Shown here in pieces: positions 8,155-10,432 of a stretch of 47,669 nucleotides of DNA. A model generated the notes under the pieces. It was not told the origin of the DNA and did not search any database. It saw nothing but the letters and a program-made list of their open reading frames with translations. Source of the stretch: Spirochaetes bacterium ADurb.BinA120. GTDB taxonomy: Bacteria > Spirochaetota > UBA4802 > UBA5368. Every line of letters starts with the position of its first letter. The first letter of the stretch is position 1. Where the stretch lies: the NCBI GenBank assembly GCA_002069125.1, contig MVZN01000019.1, forward strand, positions 1 through 47,669. The letters are read 5' to 3'. The position numbers and the translations under genes were made by a program.

Positions 8155-8496
8155 TTATCCCTCCGGCTGCCGCGTGAGGTTCTTATGGACGTTCCGGTAA
8201 TGCAGCGGGCATCGCATTACCATGGTCGTATAGATATACTCGTCCTTCTGTTGCATCATCGAGTTTACGTGCGCCACCAGGTCGCGGATCTCGAAGTCCG
8301 CGCGAAGCGATCCCCGCTCGATATCGTGCCCCACGACCTCCTTGATGAAATCGAGGTAGGAATTTACAAACTCGGCCGCTATGTCCTTTTCGGGGGATCC
8401 GCCGGCCGCGTTTTTAAGCGCGGAGATGATGTTTTCCTGCGATAGAATCGCCACGGCCTCTTCGGCAACTGCTCCACGATTGAGGTTTTTATCCAT
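8155..8496 (-). CDS. Hypothetical helical protein, 113 aa
   Basis: I do not recognise the family. The product is mostly predicted helix (EEAVAILSQENIISALKNA, FVNSYLDFIKEVVGHDIERG, IRDLVAHVNSMMQQ) and ends in a basic segment with a single Cys (MVMRCPLHYRNVHKN). There is no signal peptide. The chosen ATG has GGAG about 10 nt upstream on the minus strand. A start 69 nt further out (8565) has no ribosome-binding site. It converges with the GH57 gene, 28 bp apart, and lies downstream of the small lipoprotein gene, from which it is separated by a terminator at 8616-8650. Confidence 0.65.
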   Translation of the reverse strand: MDKNLNRGAVAEEAVAILSQENIISALKNAAGGSPEKDIAAEFVNSYLDFIKEVVGHDIERGSLRADFEIRDLVAHVNSMMQQKDEYIYTTMVMRCPLHYRNVHKNLTRQPEG

Positions 8497-8615
8497 TATG
8501 CGATACTCCGTATCCCTGGTGATCAATACAACGGCAAACCGGGGAAGCGGCCCCGAATGAACCATTAGATTACACTCAAACGTTCAATTAACAAGCATTT
8601 TGCGGTGCGGACCAC

Positions 8616-8980: not shown

Positions 8981-9361
8981 CTAACGGGCCGGAATGTAGG
9001 TGCAGCGCGATGTATCGGACTCCCATACCGTTATCGACTCGAGGAAAATCGGGCCGGGAATGGGGGCGAGTTTGTCTGCGTAGCGGCGCGCGATATGGGC
9101 GGCAATATTCTCGGAACTCGGATTTTCGGTGAGAAAGTCCGGGTGTTCGTTCAGATTGCGGTGGTCGAGGTCGGCGAGAATGGCGCGGAGTATCTTTTTC
9201 AGGTCGCCGAAATCGACGAGCAGCCCGGTGTCGTTCAGTTTCTCACCCCGTACGCTCACCACTACCCTCCAGTTGTGGCCGTGCAGGTTTTCGCATTTGC
9301 CGCTGTAGCCTCTAAGCTGGTGCGCCGAGGCGAAACTGTCTTCTACCGTCAGGATATACAT
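8981..9361 (-). CDS. queD: 6-carboxy-tetrahydropterin synthase / 6-pyruvoyl-tetrahydropterin synthase family
   Basis: QueD converts dihydroneopterin triphosphate to 6-carboxy-tetrahydropterin in the queuosine/7-deazaguanine pathway. The 126-residue product has the zinc ligands H14 (SFASAHQL), H27 and H29 (NLHGHNW). The catalytic Cys is C23, four residues before HGH, as in the QueD pattern, with the D66/H67 pair in LDHRNLNE and E114 in ITVWES. GGGAG lies about 10 nt before the ATG. It follows the DegT-like gene by 33 bp on the same strand and is probably cotranscribed with it. No other queuosine gene (queC, queE, queF) is in the window, so a different pterin role is possible. Confidence 0.9.
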   Translation of the reverse strand: MYILTVEDSFASAHQLRGYSGKCENLHGHNWRVVVSVRGEKLNDTGLLVDFGDLKKILRAILADLDHRNLNEHPDFLTENPSSENIAAHIARRYADKLAPIPGPIFLESITVWESDTSRCTYIPAR

Positions 9362-9394: not shown

Positions 9395-10432
9395 TCAGAC
9401 GAAACGGCCGAGCGCTCGGGTTATTTTTTCGATCTCCTTTCTGGTAAGAGTCGGATAGATGGGCAGGGCGTAAAGCTTTTTTGAAAGCCTGTCGCTGTTC
9501 GGATAATCGAGCGCCCTTAAGGATAGATGGGTGTGCAGCGCGACGGGGAAGGGCCGTAAAACCTCTATGCCGCTCTTCTTCCAGTATTTTTCGATCTTTT
9601 CGGCGGGCGCGTCGAAGAGTACGGGGAAGGACTGGTAGACGAAGGACTCCCCGAAGGCGTAAGGGGCCCTATGGGGCGTAGTCTTGATTGCCTCGTGGTA
9701 GGCCCGGGAGATCTCCCGGCGGCGGCGGATAAAATCCGGGAGCCGTGAAAGCTGCGAGAGCCCCATGGCGGCCTGAAAGTCGGTCATCGTGTAATCGAAT
9801 CCAAGCCGTTCGGTGGAGGGGCCGCCCCGCAGTTCGCGCATGGCGGAATAATACCGGGAATTGTCGGTCAACACCATGCCTCCGTTTCCGGTGGTGATGA
9901 CCATCGACGGGGCGAACGAGATTACGCTAATTGCGCCGCTTTGCCCGGCCGGCCGCTCTTCGCATTCGGAGCCTATGGCATGGGAGGCGTCCTCGATGAG
10001 CGGCACCCCGGTTTCCCGAAGCTCGCTCATGGGGGCATGAAAGCCGAAGGTGTGGGCGGCCACCACAGCGCGGGTTCTGGCGCTAATTCCGCCCTTCACT
10101 CCTTCCGGGGATGGGAACAGGGAGCCCTCGGCCAGGTCGACAAGCACCGGCGTGCCGCCGGCCTGGCGAAGCGCGCTCAGAGCAGCGGGGTCGAAGTACG
10201 AGGGGATGATCACCTCGTCGCCGGGCCTAATATCGAACGCGAGAAAGGCGAGATGGTACGCGGAGGTGAGCGAGTTGACGGCCAGGGCATGCCTCACCCC
10301 GGTGAGATTGGCAATCTCGATCTCCAGGTTTTTTACAGCCTCGCCGGGATCGAGGCGTTCGCTTATAAGGCAGTCGAGTACGCTCTCGAGCTCCTTGCGG
10401 GTGATGGTGGGTTTGCTGGAAACGATGCTCAT
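9395..10432 (-). CDS. DegT/DnrJ/EryC1/StrS-family protein lacking the catalytic lysine
   Basis: This 345-residue protein has the fold-type I PLP aminotransferase pattern of the DegT/ArnB family: NSLTSAYHLAFLA, GDEVIIPSYF, PVLVDL, LIEDASHAIG (D148 would contact the pyridine nitrogen), and YTMTDFQAAMGLSQL. The segment that normally reads SFxxxKxxTTGEGG here reads SFAPSMVITTGNGG. The Schiff-base lysine position is therefore Met177, and the usual Glu is Asn. No frameshift is evident. Known lysine-less members such as ColD use His instead, so a conventional aminotransferase reaction is unlikely. It may be a pseudoenzyme, a binding or scaffold protein, or an enzyme with altered chemistry. GAGGTAAAGG precedes the ATG. 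queD follows 33 bp downstream. Confidence 0.85.
   Translation of the reverse strand: MSIVSSKPTITRKELESVLDCLISERLDPGEAVKNLEIEIANLTGVRHALAVNSLTSAYHLAFLAFDIRPGDEVIIPSYFDPAALSALRQAGGTPVLVDLAEGSLFPSPEGVKGGISARTRAVVAAHTFGFHAPMSELRETGVPLIEDASHAIGSECEERPAGQSGAISVISFAPSMVITTGNGGMVLTDNSRYYSAMRELRGGPSTERLGFDYTMTDFQAAMGLSQLSRLPDFIRRRREISRAYHEAIKTTPHRAPYAFGESFVYQSFPVLFDAPAEKIEKYWKKSGIEVLRPFPVALHTHLSLRALDYPNSDRLSKKLYALPIYPTLTRKEIEKITRALGRFV

Follow-up and report, generated by a model that had tools for sequence, protein, structure and literature searches.

A DegT-fold protein family of spirochaetes that mostly lacks the Schiff-base lysine and probably is a pseudoenzyme

In DegT-type aminotransferases such as ArnB and GDP-perosamine synthase, pyridoxal 5´-phosphate (PLP) is held by a Schiff-base lysine (Lys188 in ArnB), and a conserved aspartate is the partner of the pyridine nitrogen of the cofactor. 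Dead homologues are known among PLP proteins of fold type I, where the pseudoenzyme subunit SPTLC1 stands beside SPTLC2. Lysine-free enzymes are known within the DegT group itself: ColD and E1 have a histidine at the lysine site, and ColD uses pyridoxamine 5´-phosphate (PMP) (PMC8987622). The fold, the superfamily and the existence of lysine-free DegT enzymes are not new. Here we analyze a 47,669-nt stretch of DNA from Spirochaetes bacterium ADurb.BinA120 (contig MVZN01000019.1; hereafter the window), which carries a DegT-fold gene with a methionine, Met177, at the position of the lysine, followed by queD. We did not find a description of the family to which this gene belongs in literature searches that included a T. 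pallidum locus name and PLP pseudoenzymes; these covered open-access papers only and so are weak evidence of novelty, but within them no prior account of a phylum-wide lysine-free DegT lineage with a dismantled pocket was found.

A conserved DegT-fold gene with methionine at the lysine site

The Pfam PF01041 (DegT_DnrJ_EryC1) match spans the whole open reading frame (ORF) with a score of 232.7 bits. An AlphaFold2 (AF2) model of the protein has a mean predicted local distance difference test score (pLDDT) of 94, with ArnB as the top Foldseek match (template modelling score (TM) 0.92), and together the profile score and the modelled structure place the protein in the DegT/DnrJ/EryC1/StrS fold. 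A model of a treponemal-type member of the family (pLDDT 93) also has ArnB as its top match (TM 0.87). When the window protein is aligned with ArnB, the segment SFAPSMVITTGNGG falls on SFHAIKNITCAEGG, with Met177 on Lys188, so the Schiff-base lysine of a DegT-type PLP aminotransferase is missing, and Asn183 falls on the usual glutamate. The original prediction, made from the letters of the window, had placed both residues in this way, and the alignments with ArnB and ColD (PDB sequence 2gms) bear it out. Its claim that the PLP pocket is otherwise intact stands for Asp148, Ser172 and Thr56 but not for positions 55 and 213, where Leu has taken the place of the small phosphate-loop residue and Asp that of the GxNYRM Asn. 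The window protein thus shares with ArnB and GDP-perosamine synthase the fold, a similar length, Asp148, Ser172, Thr180 and Gly184, and differs from them in the lysine and in these two contacts. At the positions equivalent to 55, 172, 148 and 213, ColD carries Gly, Ser, Asp and Asn; since it retains the Gly, Ser and Asn, the missing lysine by itself does not account for the other pocket losses.

An ATG is found at codon 177 in all five species of the genus, that of the window and four others. The orthologues of the latter are 81-89% identical, their frames are open throughout, and the pairwise ratios of nonsynonymous to synonymous substitution rates (dN/dS) in the five species are 0.06-0.09, in line with the earlier view that the gene is not decayed. 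In a search of 46 genomes of the host order, the host's own included, an orthologue was present in 44, while G016 (94% complete) and G045 (72% complete) gave ordinary DegT matches only. Across the order, site 177 lacks lysine, being mostly Met, with Gly, Asp, Ser or Cys in other genomes. Because the ATG is present in all five members of the genus and lysine is absent order-wide, the residue reflects neither a sequencing error nor recent decay; that the close homologues all carry Met rules out an isolated error. In sequence terms, the gene combines the loss of a catalytic residue with retained purifying selection and conservation over a clade, as is characteristic of a pseudoenzyme.

The family extends well beyond the order. 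Profile A2, which bridges both types of the family, matched 309 of 393 Spirochaetota genomes (265 of the 328 good ones) at E<=1e-55, each with a single copy, a count that takes in lysine- and arginine-bearing members and is a lower bound because some divergent copies, for example those of G050 and G062, miss the threshold. Among the genomes listed, one gave two matches, and this genome has 7% contamination. In a tree built with the pocket columns masked, the family members form a single clade apart from canonical DegT enzymes (bootstrap/Shimodaira-Hasegawa-like approximate likelihood ratio test 100/100), and the family is recognizable by an N-terminal signature close to PTITRKELExVLxCLIxDxL. 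Those members that have Lys or Arg at site 177 branch near the base, where branches are weakly supported, as expected if the family ancestor was an enzyme.

Pocket residues across Spirochaetota

Among 132 distinct Spirochaetota members, site 177 is occupied by M, D, S, H, G, E, N, C, T, Q or A in 118, by Lys in eight and by Arg in six. Since the residue varies, a property common to the family cannot depend on Met; the free variation of this site among orthologues speaks against the suggestion in the original prediction that Met itself matters, and we rejected Met as a new catalytic residue. Gly55 is present in 13 of the 14 Lys- or Arg-bearing members and in none of the 118 lysine-free members (Fisher test, 4e-17), and Asn213 in 11 of 14 versus 0 of 118 (1e-13); both values ignore phylogeny and overstate independence, because only two to three independent pairs exist. 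Position 55 in the lysine-free members is usually Leu, Tyr, Pro, Val or Phe, as against Gly, Ala or Cys in ordinary DegT enzymes, and position 213 is Asp or Glu in 92 of the 118. Ser172 is kept in 53 and lost in 65, while Asp148 is found in 117, Thr180 in 113 and Gly184 in all 118. Nor has a lysine elsewhere replaced the lost one: in the lysine-free set, Lys reaches no more than about 60% in any alignment column, and Lys319 is invariant within the host order only. As read from the alignment, the pocket of the lysine-free members is decayed as a set, with the lysine, Gly55 and Asn213 all gone. Of the options first raised, new PLP chemistry is unlikely. A treponemal-type member at L155:1425-2462 has Lys at site 177 but combines it with Tyr55 and Asp213; its Lys seems to have reappeared by chance within an already dismantled pocket.

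Judging from these residues, the window protein very likely is not a transaminase and, with somewhat less assurance, probably does not bind PLP. We favor, with a probability of about 0.62, a DegT-fold pseudoenzyme that is PLP-free and non-transaminating and has a ligand-binding, regulatory or scaffold role in a core spirochaete process. The single-copy, spirochaete-wide family would be derived from a PLP-dependent nucleotide-sugar aminotransferase in which the Schiff-base lysine was lost together with the phosphate-loop small residue and the GxNYRM Asn. Retained are the fold, Asp148, Thr180, G182-x-G184 and the PTITRKELExVLxCL strap at the N terminus, and the gene is under tight purifying selection. 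The protein would be a homodimer that has given up the Schiff-base linkage to PLP, and probably PLP binding altogether, such that no transamination would occur; the remodelled pocket or the protein surface might instead bind a ligand, regulate or act as a scaffold in a core cellular process common to most spirochaetes. That one copy is kept under strong selection in nearly every spirochaete genome examined makes a job other than aminotransfer probable. Of the roles first proposed for the gene, a PLP-binding scaffold appears doubtful, and the best fit is a regulatory or structural role without catalysis. More tentatively, the pocket may have been emptied of PLP and reused for a different ligand, with Asp148 kept and an acidic residue 213 gained in most members, and the protein might have a sensing or scaffolding part in a process that free-living spirochaetes share even with a 1.1-Mb genome, possibly with a GlgD-like protein (described below).

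Several points weigh against a PLP-free pseudoenzyme. The associations among residues 177, 55 and 213 rest on few independent events: an independent-pairs test of joint pocket-residue loss had only two to three pairs, too few for significance, and the Lys/Arg state at site 177 changes three times on the best tree, too few for a phylogenetic test. With Asp148 nearly invariant, the pocket might still accommodate a pyridine-like or other heteroaromatic ligand. Seven rows keep Lys together with Gly55, and ancestral activity may persist in these members. The interpretation of the pocket also is based on alignment.

The strong conservation of Asp148, Thr180 and Gly184 and the frequent Asp or Glu at position 213 would also be in line with a PLP-free enzyme, in which the pocket was rebuilt for new chemistry around Asp148, the T180-G-x-G loop and an acidic side chain at 213. 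We regard this as unlikely, since many treponemal-type members have no Asp or Glu at 213 and the conserved Gly and Thr also are found in ordinary DegT enzymes, where they may be structural.

Table 1. Features of the DegT-fold gene and of the adjoining queD in the window.
Feature	Position	Strand	Observation	Basis
DegT-fold gene	9395..10432	-	345 aa, without Schiff-base lysine	Pfam PF01041, AF2 fold, dN/dS
Codon 55	10268..10270	-	Leu replaces small residue (Gly/Ala/Cys) of PLP phosphate loop	alignments
Codon 148	9989..9991	-	Asp kept; also in 117/118 lysine-free members	alignment
Codon 172	9917..9919	-	Ser of SFxxxK block present	alignment
Codon 177	9902..9904	-	Met at position of ArnB Lys188 and ColD active-site His	alignments
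Codon 213	9794..9796	-	Asp replaces Asn of GxNYRM	alignments
queD	8981..9361	-	33 bp downstream of DegT-fold gene	TIGR03367 above cut-off; CxxxHGH motif intact

Gene neighbourhoods and the link to queD

The queD gene directly downstream, correctly called in the original prediction, encodes an ordinary QueD (6-carboxytetrahydropterin synthase), and only its neighbourhood is unusual. The pairing is conserved but not required: queD adjoins the DegT-fold gene in 31 of the 44 order genomes (in G002 a contig end interrupts) and at four loci outside the order (L058, L096, L099 and L103), whereas the gene mostly adjoins different genes outside the order. Since the window queD is the only one found in the host genome and queC and tgt lie elsewhere, the simplest reading is that it works in ordinary queuosine synthesis. 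In G009 and G018 (loci L049 and L052), the pair is kept and queC and queF were not found; G014 and G026 (L044 and L047) have the gene-linked queD plus a second queD beside queC and queF. These patterns hint at more than an ordinary queuosine role and, together with the adjacency, would be in line with a partner or regulator of QueD in pterin or deazaguanine metabolism. Such a role nevertheless is improbable for the family. The whole Gly177 sublineage (G017, G025, G029, G032, G033 and G034) has no queD next to the gene, treponemal-type members adjoin cheW, nadK and recN, and in G033 and G053, both with a family member (with Arg at site 177 in G053), no queD match was found in the genome. Because of these last two genomes, and because G009 and G018 lack queC and queF matches, the gene does not co-occur with queD, queC and queF as a queuosine-pathway gene would. 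QueD would at most be a partner in some lineages, and the pterin or deazaguanine link that had been proposed is weakly supported.

We also noted that queD and queC are present in the host genome and throughout family f1, and tgt where searched. The QueF-II model had no matches in family f1 and the QueF-I model none in the three members tested, leaving the preQ0 reductase step unaccounted for.

At 20 treponemal-type loci, nadK adjoins the gene in all 20, followed by recN in 19 and preceded by cheW in 17 (recN and cheW being counted within the stretches examined). A genome consisting of a single 1.14-Mb contig retains the gene in the order cheW-X-nadK-recN. At L182, L183 and L191 (chromosomes of 0.91-0.92 Mb), cheW is directly beside nadK, followed by recN, and the DegT-like gene is missing between them; judging by size and gene order, we take these genomes to be Borrelia-type and other genomes treponemal-type.

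A degenerate GlgD/GlgC-like gene lies directly upstream of the DegT-like gene at nine loci (L060, L062, L114, L120, L121, L141, L144, L189 and L190); in the host genome the GlgD-like gene is away from it, at L168:1450-2664 (contig C56). The GlgD-like protein scores 94.5 bits, below the curated cut-off, and has lost the GGxGxRLxPLT loop; it might be another pseudoenzyme that belongs to this system. Downstream of queD, a 136-aa ORF at 8155-8565 (minus strand), without a Pfam or NCBIfam match, occupies the same place in nine related loci. A scan for promoters and terminators around the DegT-fold gene gave sites no more frequently than expected by chance.

Comparison with catalytic and paired homologues, and implications

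An enzyme of the ColD/E1 kind, using PLP or PMP with another base in place of the Schiff-base lysine, would share the fold, the lysine loss and Asp148 with the window protein, and His is found at site 177 in 14 of the 132 distinct members, as in ColD and E1. In contrast to these 3-dehydratases, with a catalytic His and an intact PMP pocket, the site residue in the window family is unconserved, mostly Met, Asp, Ser or Gly, and the pocket Gly and Asn kept by ColD are absent even in His-bearing relatives (Tyr55 and Asp213 at L119), so that we consider this reading quite improbable.

By analogy with SPTLC1, likewise a dead homologue kept by selection, and its partner SPTLC2, the protein might be the inactive half of a heterodimer whose other half is a DegT paralogue with the lysine, and the host genome does hold one such paralogue (G000:C34). 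However, the paralogue is only 32% identical and is distant in the genome, the family is near-universal while paralogue number varies, and in G009 (97% complete) and G018 the lysine-free gene is the sole DegT match at E<=1e-10. The family thus seems to need no lysine-bearing partner, unlike SPTLC1, and an obligate heterodimer is very unlikely. A sequencing error or decaying pseudogene, for which nothing speaks beyond the odd residue at site 177, is refuted by the open frames, low dN/dS and order-wide absence of lysine and has a negligible probability.

PF01041 scores these genes as DegT aminotransferases, and standard models give no warning of the missing lysine. Annotation on this basis would burden the metabolic models of a whole phylum, important pathogens included, with a reaction that is probably absent. 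Because the family holds Lys, Arg and other intermediates, the stepwise loss of a PLP site is open to study. Single-copy, near-universal and retained even in a genome of 1.1 Mb, such a pseudoenzyme is a promising place to look for a core function that has been missed.
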